A stretch of 49,373 bases of DNA from contig CANKJK010000017.1 in NCBI GenBank assembly GCA_947482665.1, positions 1-49,373 on the forward strand. The letters run 5' to 3'. The stretch comes from Acidobacteriota bacterium. Its GTDB lineage: Bacteria; Acidobacteriota; Vicinamibacteria; Vicinamibacterales; UBA2999. Every line of letters begins with the position of its first letter. The first letter of the stretch is position 1. The notes below the pieces were generated by a model. The model was not told the origin of the DNA and made no database searches. It saw only the letters and a program-made list of their open reading frames with translations. Below are positions 7,136 to 46,656 of this stretch, piece by piece. The position numbers and the translations under genes are program-made.

Positions 7136-8275
7136 ATGCGCACATTCATCGCGTGTTCTCTACTGGCCGTCGTCCTCGCCGCGACGTCCCTGGCACCCTC
7201 AGCCCGCTCCCTGGCTGGTGAAGCCGGCACCGGCGCCGCGTTTGCCTCCATCGGGCCACTGACCTTCGCGCCCGACGGCACCCTGTTCGCCGGCGACACC
7301 GTTGGCGCCTCCATCCTGGCGCTCGACCTTGGCAAGGCTGCCGGCGCCAAGGGCACGGCCGACGTGGCGAATCTGGACCAGACCATTGCGGCCATGCTCG
7401 GCACCGACCGCACGCAGGTGCTCATCACCGATGTGGCCGTGCACCCCGTGTCGAAGAACACGTATGTCTCCGTGATGCGGGGCGAAGGCACCGGCGCGCA
7501 ACCCGCCCTCTTCAGGGTCGACGGCGCCGGCAAGGTGGAACTGGTCCCCTTCACGGGGCTGAAGTTCAGCAAGGTGATGCTGGCCGACGCGCCCAGGCCG
7601 GCCGAGTTCGTCTCGCCCTTCAAGATGGACTACGTGAAGGTCGGCCCCGAATACGTGCACCAGAACCCGCGCGTGCGGACCATCACCGACATGGCCTACG
7701 TGAACGGGCAGGTGATCGTGGCCGGACTCTCGAATGAGGAGTTCAACTCCACACTCCGCGCCATCCGCTATCCCTTCAAGCAGGCAGCCGGCACGACCAA
7801 CGTGGAGATCTACCACGGCAATCACCAGCAGCTTGAGACGCGCTCACCCATCTACGCCTTCGTGCCCTACACCATCGCCGGTGAGCCCTCGCTCGTCGCC
7901 AGCTACCTCTGCACGCCGCTGGTCACGCTCCCCCTCTCCAGCCTCACGCCCGGCGCGCACGTGCGGGGCAAGACCATCGCCGAGTTCGGCAGCCGCAACC
8001 GCCCGCTCGACATGGTGGTCTACAGCAAGGGCGGCAAGGACTTCCTGCTGATGGCCAACAACTCGCGCGGCGTGATGAAGATTCCGACCGACACGTTTGC
8101 CTCGGCCGCAGCCATCACCACGCCCGTCAAGGCCGAAACCGGTGGTGTGCCCTTTGAAACCGTGGCCGGCCTCACCGGCATCGAACAGCTCGACGCGCTG
8201 GACGCCACGCGCGCGCTCGTGCTGGCCCGGTCCGCCTCCAAGGGACTGGACCTCCGCGCCGTGGCGCTCCCATAG
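7136..8275 (+). CDS. Exported protein of unknown function, propeller-like
   Basis: A 379-residue protein I do not recognise at family level. The first ~24 residues are a Sec signal (hydrophobic core, then SARS/LAGEA). The body contains repeated short beta-strand motifs (LTFAPDGTLFAGD, VAVHPVSKNTYVSV, ITDMAYVNGQVIVAG, DMVVYSKGGKDFLLMANN) resembling propeller blades. There is no CxxCH heme site and no recognisable catalytic motif. The start is ATG 7136, preceded by AAGGAG eight bases upstream. The stop is followed after six bases by the next gene, so the two are almost certainly co-transcribed and may act together in the periplasm or at the cell surface. Confidence 0.7.
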   Translation: MRTFIACSLLAVVLAATSLAPSARSLAGEAGTGAAFASIGPLTFAPDGTLFAGDTVGASILALDLGKAAGAKGTADVANLDQTIAAMLGTDRTQVLITDVAVHPVSKNTYVSVMRGEGTGAQPALFRVDGAGKVELVPFTGLKFSKVMLADAPRPAEFVSPFKMDYVKVGPEYVHQNPRVRTITDMAYVNGQVIVAGLSNEEFNSTLRAIRYPFKQAAGTTNVEIYHGNHQQLETRSPIYAFVPYTIAGEPSLVASYLCTPLVTLPLSSLTPGAHVRGKTIAEFGSRNRPLDMVVYSKGGKDFLLMANNSRGVMKIPTDTFASAAAITTPVKAETGGVPFETVAGLTGIEQLDALDATRALVLARSASKGLDLRAVALP

Positions 8276-10540: not shown

Positions 10541-11404
10541 CTAGGCGAGCGCCTTGCCGTAGAGCGCCAGCAGGCGCGCCCAGGCCTTCTCGGCCAGCGG
10601 CTCGCTGTAGACGCCCGAGTCCGGCGGGCACCAGCCGTGCGCGGCGCCCGTGTAGACCTCGATCTCCGCGGCCAGGCCGGCCTTCGCGAAGGTCTCCTTC
10701 ATCACGGTCTTGTCCGTGGGGGCGCGCTCGTCATCGTTGGCCGCAATGGCGATGAGCAGATGCGCCTTCGCCTGCGCAGCCTGCAGATGCGGGCTGTTCG
10801 CATCCTTGGTCACCAGTCCGCCACCGTGGAACGACGCCACCGCGCCCATGCGGCCTGGCATGGCCGCAGCCGTGCGGAGCGCCATCGGTCCGCCCATGCA
10901 GTAGCCCTGTGCGCCCATCTTCCGGTTCTTCGCCACGGCCTTTTGCTGATCCAGCCACGCGATGAACGCCTTGGCGTCCGTCATGTGCGTGGCTTCGGTG
11001 AGGGCCTGCATGTGCGGCATCACCTCGCTGATGGGGGTCGCGGCGCCCTTCGGGGCCGTCGGTGCCTTCATCATGCGATAGAAGGGATTCACCACCACCA
11101 CCGCATAGCCGGACTCGGCCAGGCGCTTGCCCATCTGGCGGAACGCCGGGCGCAGCCCGAAGATGTCCGGCCAGATCAACACACCTGGCGCGGTGCCACT
11201 CGCCGGATGCACGAAGTACGCGTCGGCCATGCCGTCAGGTGTCTTGATCGTCACCTCGGATTCCGTGACGGACACGGCCCCCACCACCTCGGGCAGCATC
11301 ATGGCCACGCCAGCGCCGAGCAGCACGCCGAACTGCCGGCGCGTCACGAGCCCGTTGCGTTCAAAGGCCAGCCGGTCGTCGTCAAAATGATCCTGATCGC
11401 ACAT
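10541..11404 (-). CDS. Dienelactone hydrolase family protein with Tat signal
   Basis: A 287-residue alpha/beta hydrolase of the dienelactone hydrolase type, which opens lactone rings in aromatic catabolism. The nucleophile elbow is GYCMGG with Cys169. The triad is completed by Asp224 (ANDDER) and His256 (AAHGWC), the family's Cys-Asp-His arrangement. The N-terminus carries a twin-arginine signal: TRRQF at residues 21-25, followed by a weakly hydrophobic stretch (GVLLGAGVAMMLP). It is therefore predicted to be exported folded to the periplasm, unusual for this family. The start is ATG 11404, with AGGAGGAG 6-8 bases upstream. It is the last gene of the four-gene operon that begins at 14741, 16 bp after the NTF2-like gene. 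Confidence 0.88.
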   Translation of the reverse strand: MCDQDHFDDDRLAFERNGLVTRRQFGVLLGAGVAMMLPEVVGAVSVTESEVTIKTPDGMADAYFVHPASGTAPGVLIWPDIFGLRPAFRQMGKRLAESGYAVVVVNPFYRMMKAPTAPKGAATPISEVMPHMQALTEATHMTDAKAFIAWLDQQKAVAKNRKMGAQGYCMGGPMALRTAAAMPGRMGAVASFHGGGLVTKDANSPHLQAAQAKAHLLIAIAANDDERAPTDKTVMKETFAKAGLAAEIEVYTGAAHGWCPPDSGVYSEPLAEKAWARLLALYGKALA

Positions 11405-11420
11405 GGTCTGCTCCTCCTGG

Positions 11421-11900
11421 TCAGTCGATCTGAAAGTCGATGAATTCGTGAATCTTGCCGTCCACAACACTGAAGACGCCGAACCACGTGCCCGACCCAA
11501 GGTTGCTGCCGTCCTGCATCACCATCGTGTCGACACGCTCGTGGGTGATCATCGGCCCCACGGCCCGCGTGGTGCCCGGCTTGACCTTCATGCTGATGGA
11601 CTTCGTCCGGCTGATGAAGCCGTCGAAGGACGTCTTCGGATCGCTCAGTTGCGTGAACTTCCCCGGTCGCGCGGCCGCGAAGCGGGCGCCCGGCGCCAGA
11701 TAGGCCGCCACACCAGCGGCATCCCGCGCATTGAACGCCACCAGGAAGTCGTCAATGACCTTCATGTTGGCCTTCTCCTGCACGGACGGCGCCTTGCTCT
11801 GGGCTGACGCCACGCCCGCGAAACCCATCGCGGCGGCGGAAAGGCCCGCGGCCGTCAGGGCCTGGCGGCGGGAGAGGGTGGTGCGTTTCGTCGTCGGCAT
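11421..11900 (-). CDS. NTF2/SnoaL-like protein with Tat signal
   Basis: A 159-residue protein. A twin-arginine signal (LSRRQALTAAG, Arg11-Arg12) with a hydrophobic region to about residue 34 is followed by an NTF2-like cone domain. Recognisable segments are an N-terminal helix (VIDDFLVAFNARDAAGVAAYLAP) and the strand-rich end (GTWFGVFSVVDGKIHEFIDF). The family includes SnoaL cyclases, ketosteroid isomerase and limonene-1,2-epoxide hydrolase. The invariant residues of a specific enzyme cannot be assigned here. ATG 11900 is preferred: AGGAG lies seven bases upstream and overlaps the stop of the molybdopterin subunit gene. A GTG at 11906 would be too close. Operon position between the molybdenum hydroxylase and the lactone hydrolase suggests a step on the same substrate. 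Confidence 0.82.
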   Translation of the reverse strand: MPTTKRTTLSRRQALTAAGLSAAAMGFAGVASAQSKAPSVQEKANMKVIDDFLVAFNARDAAGVAAYLAPGARFAAARPGKFTQLSDPKTSFDGFISRTKSISMKVKPGTTRAVGPMITHERVDTMVMQDGSNLGSGTWFGVFSVVDGKIHEFIDFQID

Positions 11901-11910
11901 GTACACACTC

Positions 11911-14214
11911 CTAGGCGTTGAGGATGGACTTCACATATTGCGGCGCCAGCGGGATGCGGCGCGGCATCACGCCGGTCGCATCGAAGAAGGCCGCCATGAT
12001 CGCCACCGGGGCCGACGCGTTGGCCGCCTCGCCGCCGCCGTTGATGCCCCGGTCGTCGCGCGACGTGAAGATCGTCTTGATCTCCGGGATGTCGCCCATG
12101 CGCGGGATGCGGTACTTCGTCCAGTCGGTGCTCGTCACCTTGCCCGTGTCGAAGGTGACCTCCTCGAAGAGCGCCTCGCCGACACCCATCACGGCGCCGC
12201 CCTGCATCATGCTCGTGAGGTGCCGCGGGTTCATCACCTTGCCCACGTCCACACCCACCGTCATGGCGGTCACCTTCACGACGCCCGTACCAGGCGTCAC
12301 CTCCACGTCGGCCATGGCCACCCACCAGCCGCCGCTGCGCATCACGACGCCCACGCCGCGGCCCGTGACCGGTGTCGTACCGGTGCGCGACGCCTTCGGG
12401 TTGGGTGACGGGCGGGGCGTCCAGCCGTGCTTTGCCGCCGTGGCCTTCATCAGGTTGATGAAGACGTCGTTGGTGGTGTGCCGGATGCGGAACTCAACCG
12501 GGTCGGCCTTGGCCGCGGCCGCCGCCTCCGTGATGATGCCCTCGACGGCGTAGTTCTGCTGCCGCTGCTGCGGCGTCCGCATGATGTTGCCGCGCAGGCC
12601 ACCACTGACGGCGTTGCCCGCGAGGTTGTCCGTGACGTAGGCCGCTTCAAACGCCGGCGACTGCTCATAGACCCACACCGAGTGCAACGCGCCGAATCCC
12701 GAAACCGGCCCGGTCGGCAGCGTCGGCAGTCCGGCGAGCAGCGCGCCCAGCATCCGGGCGTCGTTCTCGTGGGGCTGATACCACTCGCTTTTCAGACCGA
12801 CCATGTGGCCCGTGGCATCCAGGCCGACCTTCACGTCCGCATACCAGGCCGGCGAGGCACTCGACCAGGCCAGGTCCTCCGGCATCGTCCACTGCACGCG
12901 CACCGGCTTCTTCAGGAGCGTCGAGAGAATCGCCGCATCTGCCATGGCGCCGTCGCCGCCGTAGGTGGTCCGGCCGTACTGGCCCGGGCCCTGTGCCCAC
13001 TTGATCGTCACCTTCTCGAACGGGATACCGAGTGTGTGGGCAATATTGGCGCGCGCACCCTGAGCCTGCGAGGTCTGCGAGTAGAGCGTCACCGACCCAT
13101 CGGCCTTCGCGTCGGCCAGCGCCACGAACGCCCCCATCGGAGCATGCCGCACGTAGGGCTGCTCGTAGGTCGCCGAAATCACCTGGGCCGCTCCGGCCAG
13201 CGCCGCATCGATCTTCGCCGCGTCTCCACGCTTCTCCGCCGGCGTCCACGTCGCGGCGCGGAGCGCGGCGGTCACCTTGTCGCTACCCGGCAGGCCCGAC
13301 CACGGCGTCCACGTCGTGGCCGCGGCCACGGCCTGCGCGGCCTGCACGGCTTCCCATTCGTTCGGCGAGACAACCGCAACAAGGTTGCCCTTCGTCACCA
13401 CTTCGGCCGTCGGGAACTTCGCGTGATCCAGGGCGCCGGCCGCGACGAGCGTGGAGCCGAGAGTCGCCGGCCGCACCATGCGCGCGTGCAGCATGCCGGG
13501 CAGGCTCACGTCCCCGCTGTACTGCGCCTTGGCCGTCACGATCTCGCGGATGCCGGGCCGGGCAAACGACTGCCCGATGACCGCGTAGTCCTTGAGCGGC
13601 TTGAGCGTGGGATTGCTCGTCACGCGCAGGCCCAGCAGACCCGAGAGGCCGATGCCGTCCTTCGGATTGATCTTCGGGAAGTCACCGGTCACCGGAATCG
13701 CGAGGTCCAGTTGCTGTCCCTTCACGAGCTCCGTGTAACGCACGCTCTTGCCGCCGCCGCTCACGACACCCTTGGTCACGGTGAGCGTATCGACCGGCAC
13801 GCCCAGCTTCGTGGACGCCAGGCCCAGGAGCGCCACGCGGGTCATCGCCGCCACCTTCTTCAGATTGGCGGCGCCACCGAGAAAGCCGGCCGAGAGGCCG
13901 CCGTCCGGTGTGTCATCGGTGCTCCCCATCACCATCGTGATGACAGCCGGGTCCACATCCAGCTCTTCGGCCACCGCCTGCGCATAGAACGCGCTGGCGC
14001 TGGTGCCCGTTTCCGTCTTCCCGGTGCGGACCACGATGCGCCCATCATCGTGCAGTTCCAGCCATGAGGCCAGCTTGGTTGCATCCATCGTCGAGGGATG
14101 CCCCTCGACGCCTGCCGCGCCGACTGCGAGCGAGGGGAACACCGCCGCGCCGACAAACAGGGCGCCGCCGGCCTTCACGAAACCGCGCCGCGTGAGTGTG
14201 AGTTCGTTGTCCAT
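11911..14214 (-). CDS. Molybdopterin-binding subunit of an isoquinoline 1-oxidoreductase-type hydroxylase
   Basis: A 767-residue large subunit of the xanthine-oxidase superfamily, IorB branch. It hydroxylates N-heterocycles or oxidises aldehydes with water as the oxygen source. A Tat signal is clear: LTRRGFVKAGG, with Arg9-Arg10, then a hydrophobic stretch ending AVGAAG. The catalytic glutamate is expected in GINGGGEAANA, at Glu729. The segment GQYGRTTYGGDGAMADAAIL is in the expected Moco-contact region. The start is ATG 14214: GAGG lies nine bases upstream, overlapping the stop of the iron-sulfur subunit gene. ATG 14223 would abut that GAGG directly and is less likely. It is co-transcribed with the 2Fe-2S subunit 11 bp upstream. 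No Moco maturation gene (xdhC/mocA type) is nearby. The substrate is not predictable from sequence alone. Confidence 0.9.
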   Translation of the reverse strand: MDNELTLTRRGFVKAGGALFVGAAVFPSLAVGAAGVEGHPSTMDATKLASWLELHDDGRIVVRTGKTETGTSASAFYAQAVAEELDVDPAVITMVMGSTDDTPDGGLSAGFLGGAANLKKVAAMTRVALLGLASTKLGVPVDTLTVTKGVVSGGGKSVRYTELVKGQQLDLAIPVTGDFPKINPKDGIGLSGLLGLRVTSNPTLKPLKDYAVIGQSFARPGIREIVTAKAQYSGDVSLPGMLHARMVRPATLGSTLVAAGALDHAKFPTAEVVTKGNLVAVVSPNEWEAVQAAQAVAAATTWTPWSGLPGSDKVTAALRAATWTPAEKRGDAAKIDAALAGAAQVISATYEQPYVRHAPMGAFVALADAKADGSVTLYSQTSQAQGARANIAHTLGIPFEKVTIKWAQGPGQYGRTTYGGDGAMADAAILSTLLKKPVRVQWTMPEDLAWSSASPAWYADVKVGLDATGHMVGLKSEWYQPHENDARMLGALLAGLPTLPTGPVSGFGALHSVWVYEQSPAFEAAYVTDNLAGNAVSGGLRGNIMRTPQQRQQNYAVEGIITEAAAAAKADPVEFRIRHTTNDVFINLMKATAAKHGWTPRPSPNPKASRTGTTPVTGRGVGVVMRSGGWWVAMADVEVTPGTGVVKVTAMTVGVDVGKVMNPRHLTSMMQGGAVMGVGEALFEEVTFDTGKVTSTDWTKYRIPRMGDIPEIKTIFTSRDDRGINGGGEAANASAPVAIMAAFFDATGVMPRRIPLAPQYVKSILNA

Positions 14215-14225
14215 GGCAGCCATCC

Positions 14226-14741
14226 TCAGGCGCGCATCAGCTTCGCGGCCTTGAGGACAGCCGCGGCAATGCCGTTGTAGGTGCCGCACCGGCACAAGTG
14301 CGGCGAGGGAGGTGTGTTGGTGAACGCGTCCTTGACCTGTGCGAGCGTGGGGTTGGGGTTGCGGCCCAGCAGGTCGGCCGCCGCCATCATCATCCCGCTC
14401 TGGCAGTAGCCGCACTGGGGCACCTGCTCCTCAATCCACGCGGTCTGGATAGGGTGCAGCGTGTCCGCCGTCTCCGGAATGCCCTTCTTGCCGGCCCACA
14501 GACCCGGCAGCCCTTCGACCGTGTGAATCTTCTTCCCGACCAGACGCGAGACCGGCGTCGAGCACGACCGGATCTCCTTGCCGTCGGCGAGCACCGCGCA
14601 GGAGCCGCATTGCGACAGGCCGCAGCCCAGGCGCGTGCCGGTGAGCTTGAGGTCATTCCGCAGCACGTAGATGAGCGGCGTATCGGCCGCCGCGGTCACA
14701 GTGCGCGGTGCGCCATTGATGGTCAGTGCGTAGCTGGGCAT
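14226..14741 (-). CDS. [2Fe-2S] subunit of an isoquinoline 1-oxidoreductase-type hydroxylase
   Basis: A 171-residue small subunit that passes electrons from the molybdenum centre. The N-terminal plant-ferredoxin-type domain carries Cys40, Cys45, Cys48 and Cys60. The C-terminal helical [2Fe-2S] domain carries Cys110, Cys113, Cys150 and Cys152 (QCGYCQSG, HLCRCGTY). The complete eight-Cys pattern is present. It has no signal peptide of its own, so if the complex is periplasmic this subunit must travel with the Tat-targeted large subunit, as known for other molybdenum hydroxylases. The start is ATG 14741, with GGAG six bases upstream. It is the first gene of the operon. There is no FAD subunit, as in other IorAB-type enzymes. 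Confidence 0.92.
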   Translation of the reverse strand: MPSYALTINGAPRTVTAAADTPLIYVLRNDLKLTGTRLGCGLSQCGSCAVLADGKEIRSCSTPVSRLVGKKIHTVEGLPGLWAGKKGIPETADTLHPIQTAWIEEQVPQCGYCQSGMMMAAADLLGRNPNPTLAQVKDAFTNTPPSPHLCRCGTYNGIAAAVLKAAKLMRA

Positions 14742-19196: not shown

Positions 19197-19889
19197 CTAC
19201 TTCGCCGGTGCAGGTGCCTGCGGCAGCGGAACCGGGGCCCCGGTGGCGTCCCGCTTCATGCCCCGAGCCCACAGGCGCTGAATCTCCTGCTCGGTCCGCG
19301 TCGTCCACGTGCTCGGGTCGGCCAGCACGGGCGAGGGCGCCACATCCTGGTAGGAGCCCACGTGGCTGTCGGAGGTCCAGATGCGCTCCTTCATCCGCCA
19401 GCCGTCCGGCGTCCGGACGTAGATATCCTCGTACTTGCCCATCAGGTCGATGGTGGGCTTCTCGCCAGGCCCTTTGATGGAGATGCCCATCATGTAGGAG
19501 GAGCCGCGGGCGGTGCCATCGGGCAGGCCGATGATGATGGGCGACATGTTGAAGTGCCGATTGCCGGCCTTTCTGGCCTGGCCCTCCTTCGCGATGAGGC
19601 TGCCATAAAAGAACCGGTGATCCTGCGGCGTCACCATCGGGGCGCCCGACATGCCCACCGAGTGCGCGTCCTTGGTGAACATCCACGAGGCATCGCGCAC
19701 GGCCCCGGCATCCACATCGCGCGGGTACTCATTGATGAGCTGGAGAATCTCGACGTAGTCCTCGGCGGAGAGATTGACGTGCGTGCCTTTCTTGACCGTC
19801 GCCTTCGCGTCCACCGCGTGGGTGGCAAGCACGGTGATCAACGTCATGATCGAACCCGCGAAGAAATAGACCAGCTTTGAGTACCGCAT
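19197..19889 (-). CDS. Exported NTF2/SnoaL-like protein
   Basis: A 230-residue protein. A signal peptide or membrane anchor at residues 1-28 is followed by an NTF2-like domain with the typical first helix (DYVEILQLINEYPRDVDAGAVRDASWMF) and later strands (YEDIYVRTPDGWRMKERIW). A Pro/Ala-rich tail ends the protein. Proteins of this group are usually annotated as nuclear transport factor 2 family with unknown substrate. The start is ATG 19889, with GAGAGGA seven bases upstream. It lies just upstream of the TonB-dependent receptor gene on the same strand. Its downstream neighbour on the chromosome, the EamA gene, belongs to a different transcription unit. Confidence 0.78.
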   Translation of the reverse strand: MRYSKLVYFFAGSIMTLITVLATHAVDAKATVKKGTHVNLSAEDYVEILQLINEYPRDVDAGAVRDASWMFTKDAHSVGMSGAPMVTPQDHRFFYGSLIAKEGQARKAGNRHFNMSPIIIGLPDGTARGSSYMMGISIKGPGEKPTIDLMGKYEDIYVRTPDGWRMKERIWTSDSHVGSYQDVAPSPVLADPSTWTTRTEQEIQRLWARGMKRDATGAPVPLPQAPAPAK

Positions 19890-41151: not shown

Positions 41152-42411
41152 TTAGTTCATCGTCGACGGCCGGAGCCCCTTATAGAGAAAGCGCTGGATG
41201 CGCTGCCCCGTCAGGCTCTCGGTGACGTAGATGTTCTGCTTCGAGTCGATGGCGATGTTGTGGGCAATGGTGAACTGCCCGCCGAAGTGGCCGGCGCTGC
41301 CAAAGGAGCCAACCACCTTCATGTCGCTGTGGCGCAGGATCCAGACCTTCTCGTTGCGGCCGTCAGCCACGAACATCCACTTCTGCTCCTTGTCCTTCGA
41401 GAAGGCGATATCGAGCACCGAGCCACGCATCGTCGCGGGCGCCACGGACGCCTCCTTGATGAACGTGCCGTCCTTCTTGAAGACCTGGATGCGCGAGTTG
41501 GCGCGGTCGCAGACGTAGACCTCGTCCTTGTTGTCGATCCAGACGCAGTGCACCGTGTTCATCTGCTGCGAGGGCGGCCCGGTGGGGCTGTACTTGAAGG
41601 GCACGCTGTCATCCGGCTTCTTGCCGTATGCGCCCCAGTGCCGCTTATAGGCGCCGGTGTCGGCGTCCCACACGATGACGCGCCGGTTGCCATAGCCGTC
41701 CGCCACGTACAGCTCGTTCGTCTTCGGGTCGACGGTGACGCCGGCGGGGCTGCGCATGGCGGTCGTGTCGTTGCTGTCGGCCTTCTTGCCTGGCACGCCG
41801 ACGGTCAGCAGATACTTCCCGTCCCGCGTGAACTTCAGAATGTGGGAGCCACCGTTGTTGCCCACCCAGACGTTGTCCTTGTGGTCCACGAAGATCGTGT
41901 GCTCGGACTCCGGCCACACATAGCCCTGCGGCTTCTTCCACATCAGGAACCGCTCCTGAATGGCGGAGGTGCCGCCCACGCCGGTCTTCTTGAAGGTGTC
42001 GGCATTGGGACCGCCCCAGGCCTGGACCACGTTGCCGAGCTGATCGAACTCAATCACGGCCGGAGCCGGCACGCAGCATTCGGACTCGGGCACGTCATAG
42101 GCCGCGTCGTCCTCGTGCCCCTGGAGCAACGTCCTCGGACGATGCACGACCCAGACGTGGTCCTTGGCATCGACGAAGGCGCCGACCATGTTGCCGACCG
42201 CCCAGTGATTTGGCAGCGGCCGCTTCGGCCAGGTCGGGTCCCACTCGTAATAGGGCACCATCTCGCCCTTGGCCCCGGTTTGCGCCGCCGGCGCGGCACT
42301 GAGGGAGGCCGTGAGGCTGGAGGCCGGTGTGGCCCGTGGCAGCCAGCCAGCACCAAGGAAGATGGCCAGCCCGAGGGCCGCCGCAAGAAGGGAGAGTCGT
42401 GTGCGCGTCAT
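41152..42411 (-). CDS. Exported NHL-type propeller protein with vicinal cysteines
   Basis: A 419-residue protein with a signal or anchor at residues 1-30 and then six-blade NHL-like repeats (FVDAKDHVWVVHR, FVDHKDNVWVGN, VTVDPKTNELYVADGYGNRRVIVWD, VWIDNKDEVYVCDRANSRIQVF, IAIDSKQNIYVTE). Four cysteines are present: adjacent Cys112-Cys113 in ESECCVPAP, plus Cys289 and Cys301. All four align with cysteines in the paralog at 45418-46656. The start is ATG 42411, with AGGAG five bases upstream. Similar proteins are sometimes labelled peptidyl-alpha-hydroxyglycine alpha-amidating lyase-like, but no enzymatic residues can be confirmed here. Function unknown. Confidence 0.8.
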   Translation of the reverse strand: MTRTRLSLLAAALGLAIFLGAGWLPRATPASSLTASLSAAPAAQTGAKGEMVPYYEWDPTWPKRPLPNHWAVGNMVGAFVDAKDHVWVVHRPRTLLQGHEDDAAYDVPESECCVPAPAVIEFDQLGNVVQAWGGPNADTFKKTGVGGTSAIQERFLMWKKPQGYVWPESEHTIFVDHKDNVWVGNNGGSHILKFTRDGKYLLTVGVPGKKADSNDTTAMRSPAGVTVDPKTNELYVADGYGNRRVIVWDADTGAYKRHWGAYGKKPDDSVPFKYSPTGPPSQQMNTVHCVWIDNKDEVYVCDRANSRIQVFKKDGTFIKEASVAPATMRGSVLDIAFSKDKEQKWMFVADGRNEKVWILRHSDMKVVGSFGSAGHFGGQFTIAHNIAIDSKQNIYVTESLTGQRIQRFLYKGLRPSTMN

Positions 42412-42501: not shown

Positions 42502-42808
42502 AGCTGGTCCGAGAAACCCCACGCAGGTCACATTTTCGATGGCTTCAGACGCTCGCGTTCGGTGGTGGTCAGGCCTGGGCGCTGGCCTTCATCACGCTCG
42601 GCCTGACGCCCCCGGCAGCGTAAGACCTCCGTCGTGCAATCCCGTTTCTCCGCGACCGACTTGATCGTGGCCCACCGCGACGGGTGCTCGTGCACATGCT
42701 CGAAGACCATTCGTACGGCGCGCTCACGCAACTCTTGGGGGTAATTGCTCGGTCGGCCCATGGGCTCCATCCTTTCTCCGAATGAGCCCTCCCACAGAGC
42801 TGGTCCGA
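42502..42808. repeat. 11-bp direct repeat bracketing the IS3 remnant
   Basis: AGCTGGTCCGA occurs on the plus strand at 42502-42512 and again at 42798-42808, on either side of the orfA remnant. It is longer than a normal IS3 target-site duplication (3-4 bp), so it is more likely part of the element's end sequence copied or left by a deletion. Confidence 0.45.
42528..42770 (-). pseudogene. Truncated IS3-type transposase OrfA remnant
   Basis: An 80-residue reading frame. Its start (MGRPSNYPQELRERAVRMV) and the helix-turn-helix region (WATIKSVAEKRDCTTEVL) match OrfA of IS3-family elements, the DNA-binding half of the transposase. The usual KWV after the HTH is replaced by CRG, and the frame stops after ERLKPSKM, where intact copies continue into the leucine zipper. 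No orfB follows. It is therefore a broken remnant of about 240 bp. The initiator is likely ATG 42761, with GGAG four bases upstream. An 11-bp direct repeat flanks the remnant. Confidence 0.8.
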
Positions 42809-45417: not shown

Positions 45418-46656
45418 CTACTTCATCCCGACGAACTTGAACTTCTGGATGCGGTCGCGTACGACTGTTTCTCCCACATAGAGATTTCCCTGGGAGTCGG
45501 ACGCCAGCACGTGGACGACCCCGAACTCGCCGCCTGCACGGCCGCCGTGGCCGAAGGAGCCGACCACTTCCAGCGAGTCGCGACGCAGGATGTGCACCTT
45601 GTGGTTGCGGCCGTCGCCCAGGTAGAGGAAGCGCTGCTCAGGATCGGGTGAAAGGGCGATGTCGAAGGCCGCGCCGTTGGCTTTTGTCTGCGGCGCCACC
45701 ACCACTTCCTTCACGAACGTGCCGTCGCGCTTGAAGACCTGGATGCGGTTGTTCTGCCGGTCGCACACATACACGAGGCCGTCGCGGCTCAGCTCGATGC
45801 AGTGGACCGAGCTGCCGAAGGAGCGCGAGAGCGGCGCGGCCGGATCGTAGGGCACGGAGAAGCCCGCCGTCGACTTCTCCACAGGCTCGCCGTAGGCGCC
45901 CCACATGCGCTTGAAGGCGCCCGTCTTCGCGTCGATCACGATCACACGGCGGTTGTAGTACCCATCCGCGATGTAGGCCTCGTTGGTCGTGGCGTCCACG
46001 AAGATGCCGGCCGGTTCGCCGAAGTTCTCCGTGTCGGTATTGCCCTTGGACTCGCCCGTCTTGCCCTTCTGCCAGATCACCTTGCCGTCGTGGGTGAACT
46101 TCGTCAGCACCGCACAGTGTTGCCCGTTGATGGTGTCGTTGCACCCCATCCACACGTTGTGTTCGCTATCGACGAACAGACTGTGCTCGCGCGGCCACTC
46201 CACCCCTTGAACCCGCGGGATTTCGCCGGTTCGTGGCATGCCGATGCCAGTGGACCTGTTGGCTTTGGCGCCCGGTCCACCCCAGGCCTGCACGATGTTC
46301 CCGGCCGGATCAAATTCCACGACGGAGGGCGCCGGTGTGCAGCACTCCGCCGCACCGGTTTCGAGGTAGTCGTCGCCCAGGTCGAGCTGAACGGTGTTCC
46401 CGCGCTGAAGGATCCAGACGTGGTCCTTTTCGTCCACATGGACGCCGCTCATGTTGCCGAAGATCCAGTTGTTCGGCAGCGGGAGCTTCGGCCACGTGGG
46501 GTCGAATTCGAACTGCGGCACGCCCGGTCCGGCGAAGGCAGCCGGGCCAGGGCCCGCGCCAGACGAGCCCGCCTGCTTCTGACATGCGCTGAGCGTCAGT
46601 GCCATGGCCGCCAGTAGTGCTGCGGCCCGAATCGTGTTCCGGCTGATCTCGCGCAT
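45418..46656 (-). CDS. NHL-type propeller lipoprotein with vicinal cysteines (second copy)
   Basis: A 412-residue paralog of the protein at 41152-42411. The N-terminus is a lipoprotein signal with lipobox LSAC (lipid Cys25). The repeats again include FDPTWPKLPLPNNW, VDEKDHVWILQR, FVDSEHNVWMGC, YIADGYYNRRVIVID and VYVCDRQNNRIQVF. Conserved cysteines are adjacent Cys105-Cys106 (AAECCTPAP), Cys286 and Cys298. Two further cysteines (172, 181) occur only in this copy. The start is ATG 46656, with GGAGG six bases upstream. It stands alone as a transcription unit separated from the first copy by the TPR pair and the IS remnant. Function unknown. Confidence 0.8.
   Translation of the reverse strand: MREISRNTIRAAALLAAMALTLSACQKQAGSSGAGPGPAAFAGPGVPQFEFDPTWPKLPLPNNWIFGNMSGVHVDEKDHVWILQRGNTVQLDLGDDYLETGAAECCTPAPSVVEFDPAGNIVQAWGGPGAKANRSTGIGMPRTGEIPRVQGVEWPREHSLFVDSEHNVWMGCNDTINGQHCAVLTKFTHDGKVIWQKGKTGESKGNTDTENFGEPAGIFVDATTNEAYIADGYYNRRVIVIDAKTGAFKRMWGAYGEPVEKSTAGFSVPYDPAAPLSRSFGSSVHCIELSRDGLVYVCDRQNNRIQVFKRDGTFVKEVVVAPQTKANGAAFDIALSPDPEQRFLYLGDGRNHKVHILRRDSLEVVGSFGHGGRAGGEFGVVHVLASDSQGNLYVGETVVRDRIQKFKFVGMK

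Follow-up and report, generated by a model that had tools for sequence, protein, structure and literature searches.

Gene organization at the locus

The window (the whole 49,373-nt stretch of DNA that was analyzed) is one contig (C17) of a genome of 3.53 Mb that is 97% complete. It contains four consecutive genes on one strand, given here from the first to the last of the row.

14226..14741, minus strand: P0004, [2Fe-2S] subunit, 171 aa; Fer2/Fer2_2 domains (Pfam), eight cluster cysteines, no signal peptide
11911..14214, minus strand: P0001, molybdenum large subunit, 767 aa; MoCoBD_1/MoCoBD_2 in permuted order, twin-arginine (Tat) motif TRRGF
11421..11900, minus strand: P0003, NTF2-fold protein resembling limonene-1,2-epoxide hydrolase (LEH), 159 aa; LEH-type profile matches, Tat motif SRRQA
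10541..11404, minus strand: P0002, dienelactone-hydrolase-like (DLH) protein, 287 aa; Pfam DLH domain, Tat motif TRRQF

With only 11, 10, and 16 nt between successive genes, the row is probably a single operon. Both the ORF positions and the Pfam domains agree with the layout and the gene identities proposed earlier from the letters alone (the sequence-only reading). A pattern scan for promoters and terminators returned nothing on the operon strand and a single terminator-like site on the opposite strand; the missing patterns count against the one-operon explanation and say little in such a genome. Elsewhere in the window, a SnoaL_4 protein with a hydrophobic N-terminus (judged by eye) is encoded at 19197-19889, some 4.5 kb away on the upstream side of the operon, and two genes for NHL beta-propeller proteins (41152-42411 and 45418-46656) flank a short ORF (42528-42770) that by eye resembles the start of a transposase.

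In the large subunit P0001, the MoCoBD_1 and MoCoBD_2 domains are permuted in such a way that part of MoCoBD_2 lies at the N-terminus (Pfam). The best PDB match of its subfamily profile is the large subunit of an aldehyde dehydrogenase (8gy3_C, E 1.4e-42); when P0001 is compared as a single sequence, 7dqx_A is the top match and 8gy3_C comes in sixth place. The profile aligns 8gy3_C with P0001 along almost the full length, and both the RR start and the region of the catalytic glutamate fall within the alignment. Entry 8gy3 is presumably the membrane-bound aldehyde dehydrogenase of Gluconobacter, which has a cytochrome subunit. It is a distant relative, and a Pfam scan of four window ORFs flanking the pair found no cytochrome. 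Residue E729, which we take to be the catalytic glutamate near the C-terminus of xanthine-oxidase-family enzymes, is invariant in 65/65 subfamily members and in 4/4 outgroup sequences and aligns with the GEP of 8gy3_C. In the alignment of the [2Fe-2S] subunit, cysteines C40, C45, C48, C60, C110, C113, C150, and C152 are invariant in all eight sequences. With its MoCoBD domains, the cysteines for two [2Fe-2S] clusters, and E729, the pair has the features of the xanthine oxidase family.

The RR motifs of the three other proteins, each ahead of a hydrophobic stretch, are kept in their relatives. The large subunit has one in all 66 related loci, and 59 of the 64 sequences in one alignment read RRxF. 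The motif is found in 12/12 rows of the DLH family, window included. The RR pair of the NTF2 family is present in 12 of 13 rows (window included), with the remaining row beginning after the motif; because the query for this set (A3) was P0003 with its signal, relatives that keep the signal are favored. The three Tat-type motifs of the sequence-only reading thus hold up, and the ortholog sets retain the RR rather than lacking a Tat signal. As background, a loose RR motif occurs in 4/29 ORFs of the window: the DLH gene, the NTF2 gene, and two ORFs named by eye as receptor-like (QRRLL) and transporter-like (SRRSL); P0001 was missed by the script, which took an upstream GTG as its start. In other loci of the genome, 4/43 ORFs match, three of which encode one molybdenum large subunit and two NTF2 relatives. 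Single chance matches therefore occur, and conservation among orthologs is the stronger evidence. Based on the conserved motifs, export of the molybdenum pair, P0003, and P0002 via Tat is predicted.

The [2Fe-2S] subunit P0004 opens straight into its Fer2 domain. It thus indeed has no export signal of its own, and its carriage by the partner subunit (hitchhiking) is plausible by analogy. According to PMC4273604, E. coli PaoABC, an enzyme of the same family, was experimentally shown to be exported whole by Tat on the signal of one subunit, while the signal-less subunits hitchhike. The periplasm, which had been called an unusual location for such chemistry, therefore has a shown precedent and is not very unusual. 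The Pao signal is on the [2Fe-2S] subunit, whereas here it is on the large subunit. The Pao genes also include one for an FAD subunit and one for the chaperone PaoD, neither of which is present in the window operon.

The two hydrolase-like proteins

P0003 alone scores below the Pfam gathering cut-offs of both SnoaL_2 (19.1 bits, cut-off 27) and LEH (18.7 bits, cut-off 24), and as a single sequence it matches PDB entry 9gol at E 0.0092. All 13 members of its family match Pfam LEH at E 0.01 or better, the best at 4.5e-13. When the A3 profile of these 13 members was compared with the PDB, the best 18 rows were of LEH type (E 7.5e-15 to 1.3e-10; 17 so named and one named MB2760), and the first ketosteroid isomerase appeared only at 1.6e-4. 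Residues R122, D124, and D155 are invariant in 13/13 members, being three of only ten invariant columns, and align with Arg99, Asp101, and Asp132 of LEH. As described in PMC3734700, the water is activated by Asp132 and held by Tyr53 and Asn55, and the epoxide receives its proton from Asp101; Arg99 positions the two aspartates. P0003 has Phe74 and Ala76 at the places of Tyr53 and Asn55, so its activity may be altered or lost and should not be assumed; read from the alignment, the family has Tyr in 7/13 and Asn in 0/13 members at these columns. P0003 thus has the fold family and the Arg-Asp-Asp triad in common with the LEH structures (1nww, 4xby, 9gol, and others), and differs from them in its Tat motif, its two substitutions, and its sub-threshold Pfam score. 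From its profile matches and conserved residues, we conclude that the P0003 family is a putative Tat-bearing relative of limonene-1,2-epoxide hydrolase, which supports the ‘epoxide handling’ suggested earlier for the NTF2-like protein as a lead. A cleavage-like ASA site was seen in P0003 by eye. A single-sequence structure prediction reached a mean pLDDT of 38.5 and was left out of the evidence.

The A3 profile search gave at least 14 genomes in the sample of 396 and six matches in the genome of the window, with 10 candidates scored per genome. In the class-wide search, an NTF2 match at 1e-12 was present in 6/193 genomes, including the window's own. Relative G018 has an NTF2 homolog of 80% identity, and the contig stretch that carries it contains no molybdenum pair. 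Two LEH-like domains are found in one 321-aa open frame at G000:C8:155832-156683 (L176, L177), possibly a fused two-domain member.

P0002 matches Pfam DLH with 123 bits (cut-off 21; E 1.7e-35). The TRRQFG motif and residues C169, D224, D225, and H256 are invariant in the 12 aligned rows (12/12), and C169, D224/D225, and H256 are candidate residues for what is presumably a Cys-Asp-His catalytic triad. The DLH domain and this candidate triad are shared with dienelactone hydrolase/carboxymethylenebutenolidase (3f67, 1din), which P0002 is unlike in its Tat motif and in the acidic n-region conserved ahead of it. Within window positions 11330-11404, this motif is preceded by an acidic stretch starting with MCDQD that is invariant in 12/12 rows and is odd for a Tat n-region. 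A DLH match of some kind was present in 88/99 relatives, and a full-length ortholog of 73-79% identity in 19 genomes of the order. Neither a molybdenum pair nor an NTF2 homolog was detectable near the DLH orthologs in the 11 loci fetched, some of which lie on short contigs. Listed by eye, the neighbors in these 11 loci varied and none was recurrent.

The molybdenum subfamily in other genomes

The genome searches sampled 99, 193, and 396 genomes, and genes in related loci were called with our own script, by which some were missed or over-extended. The scan of the genome collection yielded 67 loci, of which 66 were used; L155, a weak haloarchaeal match, was left out. The hosts are acidobacteria, Novosphingobium and other sphingomonads, Peristeroidobacter, and a few others. 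The [2Fe-2S] gene adjoins the large-subunit gene in 64/66 loci (the [2Fe-2S] match being partial in L102 and split in L137), and the remaining two contigs begin 58-76 nt before the large-subunit match. Members of the subfamily are 39-66% identical to P0001 and group apart from four other relatives with a tree support of 1.0, in a tree that took in 62 of the 66 loci after four were dropped for length or stops. Among the matches listed, with 10 candidates scored per genome, full-length sequences outside the subfamily reach at least 38% identity, so identity alone gives no clean boundary.

Two further FAD-less molybdenum pairs are encoded in the genome of the window, at C2 and C13. The C2 copy is 76% identical to a copy in G018 and the window copy only 66%; a missing ortholog in G018 is weak evidence because this genome is 81% complete. 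An ORF of 156 aa (L069, 5646-6116) is found beside the C2 pair, adjoining an aldo/keto reductase; its start is of RR type, and no Pfam match was returned for it at 0.001. The commoner neighbors of the molybdenum pairs in 69 loci are aldo/keto reductase (22/69), LysR (13), AraC (8), and cupin (5) proteins. We considered aldo/keto reductase as a fixed partner and rejected it as not defining, as it is found in 22 of these 69 loci and is lacking at the window.

Searches of the 66 related loci with tblastn and with family profiles detected neither the NTF2 nor the DLH gene beside the molybdenum pair; eight of these loci have less than 1.5 kb of downstream sequence. A scan with the two family profiles recovered the window genes as a positive control and nothing in the 68 other loci scanned, which comprise C2, C13, and these 66. 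The synteny check proposed with the sequence-only reading thus fails: the four genes do not occur together in these relatives. We reject a conserved four-gene pathway on the basis of these 66 loci and of the fetched NTF2 and DLH orthologs, which lie elsewhere. As judged from gene order, the cassette looks like a local assembly and not like a conserved new pathway.

The locus of the nearest relative (L072 in G018) contains genes for secreted-looking SnoaL_4 and DUF4440 proteins, which belong to two NTF2-fold families other than that of P0003, within about 4 kb of the molybdenum pair; exported NTF2-fold proteins may thus be associated with these molybdenum enzymes in some looser way. The SnoaL_4 protein beside this pair is located at 7355-8026. 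An NHL protein is also found beside it, as NHL proteins are also present in the window.

Electron acceptor and interpretation of the operon

The only PF00941 (FAD subunit) match of the genome lies at C3, beside another large subunit. The operon therefore has no FAD subunit, as noted earlier, and a different acceptor must serve the three FAD-less pairs. The accompanying statement that no maturation gene is present stands for the operon and falls for the genome, which elsewhere encodes one XdhC and one MoaA-type protein for Moco synthesis, along with TatC; maturation could therefore be supplied in trans. Enzymes of the isoquinoline 1-oxidoreductase (IorAB) type are FAD-less and consist of two subunits, a layout that, as generally described, they have in common with the window pair.

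We infer the co-transcription, the activities, and the electron acceptor of the operon enzymes along the following lines. The large and [2Fe-2S] subunits would be put together with Moco in the cytoplasm, and the pair would then be exported via Tat on the signal of the large subunit. It would oxidize an aldehyde or N-heterocycle with water as the oxygen donor, and electrons would pass through the two [2Fe-2S] clusters to a cytochrome or quinone instead of FAD/NAD. The NTF2-like protein would be a Tat-exported, epoxide-hydrolase-like enzyme with an Arg-Asp-Asp triad, and the DLH protein would use a Cys-Asp-His triad to hydrolyze a lactone or ester. Points against this explanation are that no cytochrome was found in the four flanking ORFs scanned, and that P0003 scores below the LEH cut-off and has Phe74/Ala76. 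Among the relatives, L075 encodes a PQQ-propeller ORF (10941-13391) that ends 18 nt before the [2Fe-2S] gene on the same strand and contains a cytochrome-like stretch that narrowly misses the cut-off (26.9 bits against 27). This arrangement fits periplasmic alcohol/aldehyde oxidation and suggests a linked alcohol-to-aldehyde-to-acid oxidation in L075. In L072, a cytochrome-like protein is encoded about 4 kb upstream of the molybdenum pair.

As to the row as a whole, we consider it probable that separately inherited periplasmic enzymes share one operon that was recently assembled in one lineage. Separate inheritance of the parts is proposed because the molybdenum pair, the NTF2, and the DLH orthologs lie apart in relatives. 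An orthologous operon to confirm co-function is lacking among the relatives, which counts against this explanation, and the SnoaL_4 and DUF4440 proteins of L072 slightly lower our confidence in it. The four genes might also be functionally unrelated neighbors joined by random rearrangement, an account that we regard as possible and somewhat doubtful. The full-length DLH ortholog of the 19 genomes, with its varied neighbors in 11 loci, and the NTF2 homolog that lies away from any molybdenum pair on its own contig are what such rearrangement would leave, whereas three exported-type enzymes with gaps of 10-16 nt on one strand at least suggest shared expression.

A joint periplasmic pathway acting on one substrate would comprise molybdenum-dependent hydroxylation of an aromatic or terpenoid-like compound, opening of an epoxide by the LEH-like protein, and opening of a lactone or enol-lactone by the DLH-like protein. 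The tight row, the three Tat motifs, and the conserved catalytic residues of both hydrolases speak for this pathway, which we nevertheless judge unlikely, as the genes are never together in the 66 molybdenum loci and the fetched accessory orthologs lie elsewhere. Moreover, LEH needs an epoxide and the operon contains no epoxide-forming enzyme; to our knowledge, molybdenum hydroxylases do not form epoxides. Non-catalytic NTF2-fold binders exist, and P0003 could be a small ligand-binding or accessory protein with its triad as a relic, given the lost Tyr53/Asn55 equivalents and the secreted-looking NTF2-fold proteins near the pair in L072. The presence of R122, D124, and D155 among only ten invariant columns in 13 members makes this quite improbable, and a role as standard subunit is opposed by the absence of its own family from all 66 molybdenum loci. 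Overall, the earlier observation is confirmed and its interpretation is partly supported.

Going further, some acidobacteria might hydrolyze epoxides outside the cytoplasm via a Tat-exported LEH branch, here co-expressed with an exported FAD-less molybdenum oxidoreductase and an exported lactonase. The three would form a module in the periplasm that detoxifies or catabolizes electrophiles derived from terpenoids or aromatics; we put this forward as a speculative idea that is unlikely to hold. If the separate-enzymes reading is correct, this locus is an example of exported enzymes being reshuffled to give a new operon. There would be an FAD-less molybdenum oxidoreductase subfamily across acidobacteria and sphingomonads whose large subunit bears the Tat signal. 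The epoxide-hydrolase-like proteins would also be a family that is exported via Tat, retains the catalytic triad, and can be put to the test; this Tat-bearing LEH-like family is the part of most experimental value.
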